Shown: positions 4,755 through 27,122 of the stretch, piece after piece
Numbering within the stretch: position 1 is the first letter of the stretch
Layout of the letters: each line of letters opens with the position of its first letter
DNA from: a virus
Length of the DNA stretch: 27,122 nt
IMG/VR virus record: IMGVR_UViG_3300036851_000627
Location: 1-27,122 of that record
Strand: one strand, 5' to 3'
The notes under the pieces: model-generated
Database searches by the model: none
The model's input: only the letters and a program-made list of their open reading frames with translations
Told to the model about the DNA's origin: nothing
Made by a program: the position numbers and the translations under genes

Positions 4755-4955
4755 TCAGGGGATGCGGTGGAGCCGCGGGTCGTCCGGATAGTGCTTGGCG
4801 AGCGCCGCCGAGTACGCCATCCCGCCGCGCACGTCCCGCCCGAACGCCTCGGCCCGCCGCTCGTCGGCGGCCTCCTCCGGAGTGGGAGGCCGCTCGCCCA
4901 GCTCGCACCGGAGGCAGGTGCAGCCCCAGGGGTGCCACCAGATGGGGCTAGCCAT
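4755..4955 (-). CDS. small Cys-containing protein, last gene of the minus-strand run
   Basis: 66 residues from an ATG that overlaps the upstream stop by 8 bases; an in-frame start at 4994 would make 79 residues but invades the previous gene further. The N-terminus holds WGCTCLRCELG, a CxCxxC cluster compatible with metal binding. The middle is Glu/Arg-rich (PTPEEAADERRAEAFGRDV), probably helical, and the C-terminus (YSAALAKHYPDDPRLHRIP) is conserved-looking. Function unknown. Confidence 0.55.
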   Translation of the reverse strand: MASPIWWHPWGCTCLRCELGERPPTPEEAADERRAEAFGRDVRGGMAYSAALAKHYPDDPRLHRIP

Positions 4956-13903: not shown

Positions 13904-15423
13904 CGACCGCCCCGCCCGCCGCCTGGGCAGCCAAGGCCGAGGCCGGGCTCGCCGAGCAGTGGGCGAACCGGCGGCAGCGGCGGGTCTGGCAACGGGACCC
14001 GGTCGCGTGGGCCGAGCACCGCGGGATCGAGCTGTGGTCGAAGCAGCGCGAGATCCTCGCCGCGGTCGCCGCGCACAGCCGGGTGGCCGTACGGTCCTGC
14101 CATTCCAGCGGGAAGACGGTGACCATGGCCGTCCTAGCCGCGTATTGGCTGGACGTCCACCCTCCCGGCACTGCGCGAGTCGTCTCAACAGCCCCGACCG
14201 GCGACCAGGTCAAGGGCCTGCTGTGGAACGAGATCCGACAGCTCTGGCGCACCCATTCCGGGCTCCCCGGCAGGGTCAACCAGACCGAGGTCTGGATTGA
14301 CGACTTCCAGGCCGGCATCGGCCGCAAGTCCTCCGACTACCACCCGACGTCGTTCTCCGGCTTCCACGCCCGGCACATGCTCGTCATCGTCGACGAGGCG
14401 GACGGCATCTCCGCCGCACTGTGGGGCGCGATCGACACGTTGGCCACCAACGAGGGCGCGAAGATCGTCGGTATCGGTAACCCCGACGACCCCACCTCGG
14501 AGTTCCGGCGCCGCCAGTCCGACCAGGGCATGGGCGGCAGTTACCACACGATCGTCATCCCGGCCTGGTGCACCCCGAACTTCACCGACGAGCCCGTCTC
14601 GGACCTGCTGCACGACGTGCTGCTCGGCCAGTCGTGGGTGGAGGAGAAGCGCCGCGCCTGGGGTGGCGCGCCGGACGTCGATCCGGACGACCCGCGCTGG
14701 GCGCCCGACCACCCGTTCTGGTCCAGCAAGGTCGAGGCCGAGTATCCGGACGAGGCCGCGAACGCGGTCATCCGGGTCTCCGACCTGCTGCGGGCGCGCC
14801 GGCACGAGGCAACCGACTCGCCCGCCGCCCGCCGCGCCGCCCGCCACGGCGTTACCCTCGGAGTCGACCTCGCCGGCTCCGACCGTGGGGACGAGTCGGT
14901 GGCCCGTGCCCGGCAGGGGCTGCGCCTGCTCGGGCAGGCCACCATCCGAACCGCCGACCCCGACGAGCTGGAGGACTGGCTGATTGACGCGGTCGACACG
15001 TTCGCCGCGACCCGGGCCCAGATCGACGCCGACGGCATCGGCCATGCCTACCCCGGCGCGGTGCGCCGCCGGCGCCCCAGGGTCGCGGCCGTCCCGATCC
15101 GCTCGGGTGTCGCGGCCAGCGATGCGAAGGCGTACGCCAACCGGCGCGCCGAGATGTGGTGGCACCTGCGCGAGCTGCTCATGAAGACGGGCGCCGACCA
15201 GCTCGACTTCTCGCAACTCGACGACGACACGGCCGCCCAGCTGCTCGTGCCCCGGTACAGCTCCCCGAAGGGCCGGATCCTCGTCGAGGGCAAGGACGAG
15301 ATCCGCAAGCGGATCGGGCGCAGTCCCGATTCAGCAGATGCCGTGATCTACGCGTACGCGGACGATCGGGCCGGCGGCGTCGCCACCCTCTCCCGGCCGA
15401 CGGGGTCGCTCACGCGGCGCTAG
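13900..15423 (+). CDS. terL: phage terminase large subunit
   Basis: 507 residues, ATGA overlap with the previous gene. The N-terminal ATPase has a deviant Walker A (RSCHSSGKT, residues 65-73), the CHxSGK variant found in many actinophage terminases, and a Walker B (MLVIVDEAD, residues 159-167). The C-terminal nuclease has acidic motifs GVDLAGSDRGDE (about 321-332), IDADGIG (about 375) and DSADAVIYAYAD (about 477-488), fitting the RNase H-like metal site of large terminases. It packages phage DNA into proheads, docked on the portal encoded at 18169. No frame disruption is evident, so it appears functional. Confidence 0.93.
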   Translation: MTTAPPAAWAAKAEAGLAEQWANRRQRRVWQRDPVAWAEHRGIELWSKQREILAAVAAHSRVAVRSCHSSGKTVTMAVLAAYWLDVHPPGTARVVSTAPTGDQVKGLLWNEIRQLWRTHSGLPGRVNQTEVWIDDFQAGIGRKSSDYHPTSFSGFHARHMLVIVDEADGISAALWGAIDTLATNEGAKIVGIGNPDDPTSEFRRRQSDQGMGGSYHTIVIPAWCTPNFTDEPVSDLLHDVLLGQSWVEEKRRAWGGAPDVDPDDPRWAPDHPFWSSKVEAEYPDEAANAVIRVSDLLRARRHEATDSPAARRAARHGVTLGVDLAGSDRGDESVARARQGLRLLGQATIRTADPDELEDWLIDAVDTFAATRAQIDADGIGHAYPGAVRRRRPRVAAVPIRSGVAASDAKAYANRRAEMWWHLRELLMKTGADQLDFSQLDDDTAAQLLVPRYSSPKGRILVEGKDEIRKRIGRSPDSADAVIYAYADDRAGGVATLSRPTGSLTRR

Positions 15424-24642: not shown

Positions 24643-25233
24643 ATGACCAGACTCGGTACCGCTCTGAACGCCGTGACCGCTGGTGTCGCGGTGGCCGCCT
24701 ACGCGCAGTGGCAGCGCGAGCGGCGCCGCCGGCCCGAGGTGAAGGTCGACTGGTGGTGGTCCGTCGGCAGCCGCGACGCCGGCTACCAGCCGTGGCCCCA
24801 CGGTGAGCCGATCGCCAGCGAGCCCGGGGCCACCCTGTGGATCCGCACTGCCGTCACCAACGTCGGCGACGCCACCGGCGAGCGGGCCGTCCTGAACTTC
24901 CTCGCCCCCGCCGCCGTCACGATCGACCGCTGGGACCACACCAAGAACGACTACGTCCCGCCGCGCGACGGCGCCGAGAACCCGCGCGTCGGCACCCCGC
25001 CCGTGCACGCCGTCCGCTGGTTCCTCGACGAGTGCGTCTGGACCCCGGGGCTCACCTGGGTCCACCACTACCGGATCACCCTTCCCGAGGGCGACGGCGC
25101 CCACAGATTCGCCGTCGAGGTCGCCGACCCCCGCCTCGACGCGCGCGGCGCACGACGCACCCCGGCCACGGTCGAGGTGGACGAGCACGGCCGTTTCGAC
25201 GTGCGCCAGCTACGGGCGGTCGCGGCTCCATGA
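24643..25233 (+). CDS. membrane-anchored beta-domain protein, 196 aa
   Basis: AAGAAGGATCGCC precedes the ATG. An N-terminal hydrophobic helix (ALNAVTAGVAVAAYAQW) is followed by a basic patch (QRERRRRPEVKV), then a Trp-rich beta domain (DWWWSVGSRDAGYQPWPHG, LWIRTAVTNVGDATGERAVL, YRITLPEGDGAHRFAVEVAD). The body resembles an immunoglobulin-like sandwich. Family not recognised. It directly precedes and overlaps the glycosyltransferase. Confidence 0.6.
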   Translation: MTRLGTALNAVTAGVAVAAYAQWQRERRRRPEVKVDWWWSVGSRDAGYQPWPHGEPIASEPGATLWIRTAVTNVGDATGERAVLNFLAPAAVTIDRWDHTKNDYVPPRDGAENPRVGTPPVHAVRWFLDECVWTPGLTWVHHYRITLPEGDGAHRFAVEVADPRLDARGARRTPATVEVDEHGRFDVRQLRAVAAP

Positions 25234-26225
25234 GGATCCGAAGCTGGACCACCGCCGACGGAGGCTGCGGGTTCTACCGGGTACGTCGTCCCTTCCGCGA
25301 GCTGTCGGTCCACGGCCACGACACCTTCATCCCGAACGATGCCGTGCCCGTGCCCAGCGTCGAGGACGTGCTCGACACCGACGTGCTCGTCGCGCAGCGG
25401 GTGATCCACGCCGAACTGCTGCCCCAGTGGAACCATCGGCGCGCGCTGCGTCCGGTCGTGTTCGAGCTGGACGACGACATCTGGGCCATTGACCCGGACA
25501 ACCCCGCACTGAAGGACTACCTGCACCCGAGCGTCGGGGATTTGGCCGCCGAGTTCGTGGCCCGGTCCGACCTCGTCACCGTGTCGACGGCGCCGCTGGC
25601 GGAGCGGGTGTCGGCGTGGAACCCGCGCGTGCAGGTGATCCCGAACTGCATCGACGCGGCGGTGCTGGAGCTGCCGCGAGCGGACCGGACGACCGACAAG
25701 ATCACGATCGGCTGGAGTTGCTCAACCTCGCATGTCAGCGACTTACGGAGCGTCCTCGGACCGTGGAGGGAGTTCTTCGGGTCGCGGCCCGACGTCGAGT
25801 TGATCATCTATGGTGTCGATTATCGACCCATGCTCGCCCTGCCTGACGTGCGGTTCGAGCCTTGGCGGCCGAACATCATGGACTTCTATCGAGGGATCGA
25901 CTTCGACATCGCGGTTGCGCCGCTCGCACCGCTGATCTTCAATCGGTCGAAGTCCGGCAACAAGGCGATCGAGGCATTCGCCCGGGGCATCCCTGTCGTG
26001 GCCTCGAACATGGAGCCCTACCGGGGGATCGTCGAGGACGGGGTGACGGGCTACCTTGTCGACAGCGCCGAGCAGTGGGCGAAGAGACTCGGCGAGTTGG
26101 CCGACGACGCCGACGCGCGTGCCGAGATGGGCGCGAACGCTCGGCGTGCGGCAGAGCGGCACGTCATTCAGGGCGAGGACAACTGGCGCCGATGGGAATC
26201 GGCATATCGGTCCGTACTGCGGTAG
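25230..26225 (+). CDS. GT-B type (GT4-like) glycosyltransferase
   Basis: 331 residues; ATGA overlap start. The N-terminus MRIRSWTTADGGCGFYRVRR has the D-G-x-G-x-YR start of phage and bacterial glycosyltransferases. VVFELDDDIWAIDPDNP near 75-91 and VQVIPNCIDAAV near 133-144 are typical of the family. The nucleotide-sugar site is KSGNKAIEAFARGIPVVASN followed by MEPYRGIVEDGVTGYLV at about 241-278. It transfers a sugar from a nucleotide donor to an unknown acceptor, perhaps a virion protein, DNA base or host surface. Codon third-position GC seems slightly lower than in neighbouring genes. Its stop is immediately followed by the tRNA-like array. Confidence 0.85.
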   Translation: MRIRSWTTADGGCGFYRVRRPFRELSVHGHDTFIPNDAVPVPSVEDVLDTDVLVAQRVIHAELLPQWNHRRALRPVVFELDDDIWAIDPDNPALKDYLHPSVGDLAAEFVARSDLVTVSTAPLAERVSAWNPRVQVIPNCIDAAVLELPRADRTTDKITIGWSCSTSHVSDLRSVLGPWREFFGSRPDVELIIYGVDYRPMLALPDVRFEPWRPNIMDFYRGIDFDIAVAPLAPLIFNRSKSGNKAIEAFARGIPVVASNMEPYRGIVEDGVTGYLVDSAEQWAKRLGELADDADARAEMGANARRAAERHVIQGEDNWRRWESAYRSVLR

Positions 26226-26286
26226 TGGGCGCCCAGGACTCGAACCCGACGTGTATGCCGTCCGCCCGCACCCGAAGGTGCCCCAA
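26226..26286 (-). ncRNA. tRNA-like module 1 (last on the minus strand)
   Basis: T-arm at 26249-26233: TCGGG, loop TTCGAGT, CCTGG (two wobble pairs). Exactly 7 bases (GCGCCCA) run from the T-stem to the CCA, which abuts the stop codon of the glycosyltransferase on the opposite strand. The 5' hairpin is GCACC-TTCG-GGTGC at 26281-26268, a canonical cUUCGg tetraloop on the minus strand. TTGGGG opens the module and pairs with CCCA. Confidence 0.7.
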
Positions 26287-26369
26287 CCCAGCCTGGCCAA
26301 GCCCACCAAGCCGTGCGGTGCCGTACCCTGACCCGCCAAGCCCGGCCATGCCGAATGGCCTTGTGGCCG

Positions 26370-26429
26370 TGGGAGTCGGGGCCTCGAACCCCGAAGGCTG
26401 CCAGCCTCCCGCGCCTTGCGGCGCCCCAG
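26370..26429 (-). ncRNA. tRNA-like module 2
   Basis: T-arm at 26393-26377: CGGGG, loop TTCGAGG, CCCCG. Seven bases ACTCCCA end in CCA. 5' hairpin GCGCC-GCAA-GGCGC (26424-26411), a GNRA tetraloop. CTGGGG begins the module; UGGGG pairs with UCCCA (one G-U). Confidence 0.7.
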
Positions 26430-26524
26430 CTCTGCCTAGCCACGCCGTACCGGACCGATCCCGGCCGGTCCCGGCCGATCTCTGCCTTGCCATGACCCGC
26501 CAAACCGTGCTGGCCTTGCGGCCG

Positions 26525-26582
26525 TGGACGTCAACGGCTCGAACGTTGATGCCTGCCAGTCGCCCGCGCTTGCGCGCCCCAG
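26525..26582 (-). ncRNA. tRNA-like module 3
   Basis: T-arm at 26548-26532: CAACG, loop TTCGAGC, CGTTG; this stem differs from the others at four positions, all compensated. Seven bases ACGTCCA follow. 5' hairpin GCGC-GCAA-GCGC (26577-26566), GNRA loop. Closing UGGG pairs with UCCA through one wobble. Confidence 0.7.
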
Positions 26583-26697
26583 CATCGCCGTGCCTTGCCG
26601 ATCCCTTCGCTACCGAGCCTTGCCACGCCGTGCCGAATCGGACCATGCGGTTCCTTGCGGAGCCATGACCCGCCCAGCCGTGTTGGCCTTGCGGCCG

Positions 26698-26757
26698 TGG
26701 GGCGCCGGGAGTCGAACCCGGCCGAAGACCGTCACCCCGCTCCCGAGGGAGCCCCAA
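26698..26757 (-). ncRNA. tRNA-like module 4
   Basis: T-arm at 26721-26705: CCGGG, loop TTCGACT, CCCGG. Seven bases CGCCCCA end in CCA; here the closing pairing is longest, UGGGGC with GCCCCA (6 bp). 5' hairpin GCTCC-CTCG-GGAGC (26752-26739), a CUCG loop of the stable YNMG class. Confidence 0.72.
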
Positions 26758-26821
26758 CCTTGCCGAGCCAGGCCATACCAGGCCCGTCCATGCCACGGCC
26801 TGCCTCTTGACCCTGCGGTCG

Positions 26822-26880
26822 TGGGCGTCGGGGAGTCGAACCCCGAAGTGACCATCCGCCCGTCTCCGAGGAGACCCCAA
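26822..26880 (-). ncRNA. tRNA-like module 5
   Basis: T-arm at 26845-26829: CGGGG, loop TTCGACT, CCCCG. Seven bases ACGCCCA end in CCA. 5' hairpin GTCTC-CTCG-GAGAC (26875-26862). TTGGGG opens the module directly after a regular pentamer tract (...CCCGG CAAGG TTGGG). Confidence 0.72.
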
Positions 26881-26965
26881 CCTTGCCGGGCCGCGCCGCA
26901 CCCTGCCGTACCCCGCCACACCCCGCTACGCCATACCTGACCGCACCGCACTGGCCTTGCGGCCG

Positions 26966-27024
26966 TGGGTGCTGACGGCTCGAACGTCAGTGCCTGCCCG
27001 CCACCCGCTCGCGAAGAGCCCCAA
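26966..27024 (-). ncRNA. tRNA-like module 6 (first on the minus strand)
   Basis: T-arm at 26989-26973: TGACG, loop TTCGAGC, CGTCA. Seven bases GCACCCA end in CCA. 5' hairpin GCTC-TTCGC-GAGC (27019-27007), shorter than in other copies. It is preceded by about nine pentamers starting at the stop codon of the upstream gene. Confidence 0.7.
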
Positions 27025-27071
27025 CCAGACCGCGTCTCACCAAACCGCGCCGCGCCTTGCCCCACCTACCC

Positions 27072-27122
27072 CTATGCGGGATCAGCCACAACATCCCCCG
27101 TCTCGTGGTCGATCGTTTCCAC
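27072..27122 (-). CDS. C-terminal end of a minus-strand gene, truncated by window edge
   Basis: The last 16 codons read VETIDHETGDVVADPA followed by TAG at 27074-27072, a protein-like acidic C-terminus with high GC at third positions. The start lies beyond the window. The pentamer tract begins at once after this stop, so the tRNA-like array would be transcribed as its 3' tail unless a terminator intervenes. Too short to assign a function. Confidence 0.45.
   Translation of the reverse strand: METIDHETGDVVADPA

Follow-up and report, generated by a model that had tools for sequence, protein, structure and literature searches.

In mitochondria, tRNAs located between open reading frames are excised from the transcript by RNase P and RNase Z. 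Small RNAs with tRNA-like parts include mascRNA, which has reduced arms, is read by RNase P and lies at a transcript junction, and YrlA, a noncoding RNA of bacteria and phages which carries a tRNA-like module and has Ro as its partner. The tRNA-like structures of plant viruses (TYMV and others) mimic the acceptor/T-arm and are cut by RNase P in vitro (PMC12710915); the RNA subunit of RNase P pairs with R73 and C74, and a small pseudoknot substrate was no longer cleaved once C74 had been changed to G (PMC12710915). At the DNA level, the stoperators of cluster A phages are 13-bp operators bound by a repressor (PMC3029335), and stoperator sites have also been reported in phiScoe phages (PMC10276819). 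Here, the conservation of structure and base pairing indicates, with very little doubt, the existence of a phage-borne RNA element which resembles a tRNA reduced to its upper half.

The window analysed is a stretch of 27,122 nt (positions 1 to 27,122 of the IMG/VR record IMGVR_UViG_3300036851_000627) from a phage encoding a terminase and a portal protein. Six modules are located on its minus strand, running from 27071 to 26225. Modules 1, 4, 5 and 6 have class I, tRNA-like cores (26967–27006, 26526–26565, 26371–26410 and 26227–26267), followed by the dinucleotide R73-C74 at 26966–26965, 26525–26524, 26370–26369 and 26226–26225, respectively. Modules 2 and 3 (both GGTC/TTCGACT), with cores at 26823–26861 and 26699–26738 and R73-C74 at 26822–26821 and 26698–26697, belong to class II, a second linker subclass with GGTT/TTCGATT or GGTC/TTCGACT. 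A structural descriptor combining the T-stem, the TTCRA loop, the linker GG and the 5-bp acceptor matches exactly these 6 cores in the window and nothing in 200 Markov shuffles, and a stricter pattern yields 4 matches against none in 100 dinucleotide shuffles. In cmsearch, modules 1 to 6 score 63.2, 54.5, 51.5, 60.7, 64.5 and 57.7 bits. All six minus-strand copies described in the sequence-only reading were recovered with the make-up given there: a perfectly paired T-stem of 5 bp, a loop of 7 nt that opens with TTCGA, and 7 nt separating the T-stem from a CCA. That reading was also correct in its hairpins and in noting that the T-stems vary while pairing is maintained.

Each core is preceded by a minus-strand hairpin, located at 27007–27019 in module 1 (GCTC/GAGC, with UGGGG on its 5′ side) and at 26862–26875, 26739–26752, 26566–26577, 26411–26424 and 26268–26281 in modules 2 to 6; the stem sequences differ and the pairing is retained. 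A GNRA-type hairpin follows each of modules 1 to 5 on the 3′ side (GGCC-GCAA-GGCC at 26953–26964 in module 1; 26809–26820, 26685–26696, 26512–26523 and 26357–26368 in the others), and a weaker one follows module 6. The modules are joined, on the same strand, by tracts of (GGYNN)n pentamers, at 26878–26947 (13/14 pentamers conforming), 26755–26804 (8/10), 26610–26644 (6/7), 26432–26506 (11/15) and 26303–26352 (8/10), and a further tract lies 5′ of module 1 (27022–27066, 8/9). On one side, the array is bounded by what is probably the 3′ end of a gene on the minus strand (27072–27122), the open frame of which ends with a TAG stop codon at 27074–27072 and apparently continues past the window; we infer that the array lies in the 3′ region of this gene. 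On the other side lies a convergent plus-strand glycosyltransferase gene (24837–26225), the stop codon of which is abutted by R73-C74 of module 6.

The element comprises 42 bases, that is, a core of approximately 40 nt plus R73-C74, with a modal geometry of a 5-bp acceptor-like stem, 11 unpaired linker nucleotides, a 6-bp T-stem and a 7-nt loop (TTCGANY). In the window, the acceptor-like stem is GGGNG/CNCCC and lies directly 3′ of the upstream hairpin. It was recovered independently by RNAalifold, with a covarying fourth pair, and replaces the UGGG/CCCA closing stem of the sequence-only reading, which is a group-specific upstream sequence unsupported by the wider family. The linker follows the consensus A-N-Y-G-G-C-A-N-X-C-A, in which one N base is paired with the other (C-G, A-U or G-C), closing a YGGCA loop, and X pairs with T-loop position 60 (A-U, G-C, C-G or U-A). 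YGGCA resembles the D-loop of tRNA. With only 11 unpaired nucleotides, the linker cannot accommodate an anticodon arm; the interval of 13 to 17 nt noted previously was rightly judged too short for one, but it does hold a counterpart of the D-arm, namely, YGGCA closed by its single pair. The second tetraloop hairpin exists but is not a D-arm, because it lies outside the tRNA-like core. Taken together, these features suggest an elbow in which the D-loop-like YGGCA would dock on the T-loop, stacked on an 11-bp helix formed by the T-stem and the acceptor.

Support for this fold comes from recruits picked without any condition on the acceptor. Among 301 such sequences, 262 have a perfect 5-bp acceptor at the expected register, compared to at most 4 at any other register, and X-60 is a Watson-Crick pair in 293, against 166 ± 5.6 after shuffling. 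A diverse set of 54 recruits, likewise free of the acceptor condition and taken from 60 selected sequences by leaving out six (two plainly unrelated and four dropped without a criterion), shows pairing in 96.7% of cells (62% when shuffled), compensatory changes in 12 of the 13 pairs, including the two tertiary-type pairs, and a covariation score of 0.87 versus 0.20, which collapses upon sliding the columns by 1 to 3 positions. Applied to these 54 recruits, RNAalifold arrived at an identical set of 11 nested pairs. The GG of the linker and the TTC of the loop, corresponding to the GG of the D-loop and the UC of the T-loop that face each other in a tRNA elbow, do not vary, in part because both were conditions of recruitment, and the neighbouring X-60 and loop-closing pairs covary. 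On these grounds, the RNA identity of the element is near certain.

The bases flanking the core are also conserved. Although the search imposed no condition on the tail, R73 and C74 are each present in 325 of the 339 distinct cores (96%), whereas the next base is C75 in only 24 (7%). The CCA previously taken for a 3′ terminus is in fact C71-C72 of the acceptor stem plus the discriminator A73, and it is not a CCA tail, because A73 is followed by the conserved C74. Position −1 is an A in 209 of the 339 cores and thus, given the prevalence of R73, seldom pairs with position 73. A weak signal of pairing between −1 and 75 (203 versus 139 expected) may reflect array versus operon ancestry, and we do not claim it as a family feature. 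A hairpin tends to start 0 to 3 nt 3′ of C74 across the family.

The element is widespread. A consensus pattern matched 52 IMG/VR stretches with unrelated flanks, a few of which are probably chance or coding matches, and a covariance model built from 49 sequences was run on locus sets in turn and gave 126, 114 and 323 matches, with an overlap between the first two. When filters were switched off for the phages Lika and phiScoe10, the elements scored at least 40 bits and everything else at most 11 bits, a clean split. Using the descriptor with no condition on bases outside the stem, we counted 543 occurrences, corresponding to 339 distinct cores in 155 loci. Element-like BLAST matches (E up to 0.1) were obtained in 113 Streptomyces, 24 Mycobacterium and 4 Gordonia phage records, in which the element is almost never annotated, and these hosts include M. 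smegmatis, S. coelicolor and S. lividans; phages of soil bacteria carry hundreds of unannotated copies. The best-stocked phages have 6 to 12 copies per genome, with approximately a dozen in Papyrus. Further copies were found in Omegavirus LittleE and in Microbacterium phage Wolfstar, the latter carrying equal-scoring copies near both genome ends (1261–1314 and 62402–62455), perhaps in terminal repeats. One pattern matched 111 IMG/VR stretches, whereas 257 billion bases from the genomes of bacteria and archaea contained only 10 matches. By the covariance model, bacterial genomes carry 0 to 7 copies, located together on one contig, as would be the case for prophages. Fully paired matches also occur in Tenacibaculum and in a Chitinophagaceae MAG, with several in a Gemmatimonadota MAG. 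A plasmid collection produced only partial matches from halophilic archaea, covering approximately half of the query, which are probably due to chance.

The tandem array, which the sequence-only reading regarded as the defining form, proved too narrow a definition, most copies in named phages being single elements between genes. In six annotated phages, 31 of the 36 elements sit between genes of the same strand, all in the sense orientation, and copies are restricted to operons of small genes, which occupy one or two regions of the genome. The spacing is tight, with a median of 5 nt from the stop codon to the flank of the match, the core following 6 nt further (approximately 11 nt after the stop), and a median of 35 nt (about 35 to 40 nt) from the match to the next start codon. 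By contrast with these gap copies, a lone element in Corynebacterium sp. MSK041 (position 4801 of the locus) has an intrinsic terminator, not a gene, directly behind it, which makes 3′ ends a further location of the element. In Lika, a dyad motif, GTGTGYWACCTTCGCAC, which appears promoter- or stoperator-like, is found on the minus strand at 14451, 14052, 13296, 11536, 10803 and 9376; it lies just upstream of 4 of the 7 elements and is separate from them.

In larger phages, including that of the window, the element occurs in noncoding arrays of 3 to 7 copies. The refutation proposed with the original observation, namely, an absence of arrays elsewhere and of covariation, is decisively contradicted by the arrays of other loci and by the compensatory changes described above. 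In the window, as in 18 further locus strands, the modules are joined by exact (GGYNN)n tracts on the same strand, with about 8 to 15 units in a strict 5-nt register (the tract-bearing loci include L042, L035, L005, L020, L008, L045, L023 and L088). The tracts are nearly all located near an element, and none of at least 7 units appeared in the permuted windows tried. We know of no name for these tracts, which look like a repetitive binding site and are a candidate for one. The window array represents the multi-copy noncoding form of the element and might undergo the same processing or binding as the intergenic copies.

The sequence-only reading suggested roles as an RNase P substrate, a decoy or a scaffold, all of which remain tentative. 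For the intergenic copies, structure and position relative to genes point to a signal for processing or protection, and the element is probably a cutting or protecting mark on phage messages. As a mechanism, host tRNA-maturation machinery, RNase P in the first place, would read the elbow and the end of the helix and cut the polycistronic phage mRNA between A(−1) and G1, just after the stop codon, so that the downstream message would then begin with a base-paired, nuclease-resistant structure. This would be analogous to mitochondrial tRNA punctuation, with the tRNAs reduced to the part which the enzyme reads. Such punctuation by RNase P-type processing has, in our estimate from sequence, somewhat less than an even chance of being correct. 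It is supported by the conservation of R73 and C74, both of which are contacted by RNase P RNA, by the mostly unpaired position −1 and by the sense placement in same-strand gaps with tight stop and start spacing (31/36). The occurrence of the element in unrelated phages from several phyla points to a host reader that is itself conserved. Against it, the stacked helix has 11 bp compared to 12 in tRNA, the RCC motif lacks C75 in approximately 93% of cores, the upstream hairpin of the window arrays abuts position −1 and so leaves no single-stranded leader for RNase P, and the Corynebacterium copy precedes a terminator instead of a gene. The last observation, the tight spacing and the hairpin close behind C74 in most copies would also suit an uncut, nuclease-resistant cap or block, shielding a downstream 5′ end or an upstream 3′ end or barring Rho from untranslated gaps, and transcripts could begin at the element if the promoter-like motif upstream of 4 of the 7 Lika elements is active as such. 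Simple hairpins would suffice for this role, however, leaving the strict conservation of the elbow, R73-C74 and X-60 unexplained, and we consider it rather unlikely.

The conserved elbow, the presence of several copies in small-gene operons and the regular (GGYNN)n pentamers of the arrays, reminiscent of a repetitive protein-binding site, could instead point to a tRNA- or ribosome-binding protein of the host or phage that regulates translation, antitermination or mRNA location without processing. We judge this less likely still, no candidate protein having been found: TRAP, considered as a reader of the pentamer tracts, is absent from 10 array-type records, and Ro/TROVE is encoded in 3 of the 16 array-type records (G002, G007 and G024; phrog_850 in the two proteins checked) and in 0 of the 14 other element-bearing records, whereas seven Ro-encoding actinophages carry no element, which led us to reject a link to Ro and Y RNAs. 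Arrays in particular, with 3 to 7 noncoding copies that keep the elbow and discard the anticodon, might act as decoys titrating a nuclease, nucleotidyltransferase or modification enzyme which reads the top half of tRNA. Known anticodon nucleases would find nothing to cut, there is no CCA end, and a decoy has no need for the fixed stop and start distances of the intergenic copies in coding operons, all of which makes this role improbable. Least credible is a DNA-level element, be it an operator or stoperator, a recombination boundary, or a remnant of an attachment site or tRNA gene. Stoperators are a known case of dispersed intergenic repeats in related phages, but neither a DNA-binding protein nor homologous recombination would yield stems which vary freely while keeping their pairing, all mapped gap copies are sense, and the Lika dyad is separate from the element; this reading was already disfavoured.

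If RNase P-type punctuation or protection of messages holds, more than 140 sequenced phages, including laboratory phages of Streptomyces and mycobacteria, carry an element overlooked by annotation. Such an element would point to a way in which the mRNA of polycistronic phage operons is processed or protected, would test in a naturally minimal form which features of a tRNA its processing enzymes require, and offers compact, transferable sequences for setting genes apart in expression constructs for actinobacteria. A broader view, which we put forward tentatively and with less confidence than processing itself, is that of an RNA class overlooked even in well-studied laboratory phages, possibly the smallest to build a tRNA elbow, serving across several bacterial phyla as operon punctuation that host machinery reads. 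In large actinophages it would have expanded separately into a noncoding RNA, with mini-tRNAs alternating with (GGYNN)n binding tracts, as a multivalent scaffold or decoy.

No Rfam family passes its curated threshold in the window or in any of eight loci rich in elements, except for the unrelated GOLLD RNA (190 bits), which lies at 14838–15297 of Papyrus (NC_022053.1), within a 1,160-nt gap. The statement of the sequence-only reading that no named RNA family has this layout is thereby supported. No publication on tRNA-like, intergenic or RNase P elements of actinophages was found to describe the element in the part of the literature covered, and a prior description is possible. ARAGORN calls no tRNA in the window, and neither the window nor the eight loci have an Rfam tRNA match at the gathering score; since the element has an acceptor strand of its own at a distance of 11 nt from its T-stem, it is not an ordinary tRNA gene or an attachment-site remnant. 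Elsewhere, ARAGORN calls of tRNA-Arg or tRNA-Ala overlap elements (L002, 302–384; L031, 1347–1434; L005, 6613–6706). These look like false positives, and some annotated phage tRNAs may be of the same kind.

Among the described systems, the stoperators of cluster A resemble the element in having many intergenic copies in one orientation, but they have no RNA structure, and the conserved primary DNA sequence that defines them is not seen here, the stems varying freely with pairing kept. YrlA (RF02553) scores 15.9 bits against a cut-off of 69 bits, and the Ro-encoding actinophages tested carry no elements. The mascRNA-menRNA family (RF01684, MEN-beta) reaches 17.5 to 18.6 bits in two window modules, below its cut-off of 42.5 bits; it shares with the element a small, tRNA-like form and a position at a transcript junction, but is longer and forms one 3′ end of vertebrate nuclear RNAs, whereas the element is repeated in operons. 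Mitochondrial tRNA punctuation likewise places tRNA shapes at the boundaries of open reading frames in polycistronic transcripts, but its units are tRNAs working in translation, while the element has no anticodon and its processing is predicted only. The plant-virus structures have a pseudoknotted acceptor and a CCA and stand at the 3′ end of RNA virus genomes, whereas the phage element has an unpseudoknotted acceptor, ends in R73-C74 only and lies inside transcripts of dsDNA phages. With its T-arm and TTCRA loop set on an acceptor-like helix, it can be classed among tRNA-like structures in general, outside any named RNA family.
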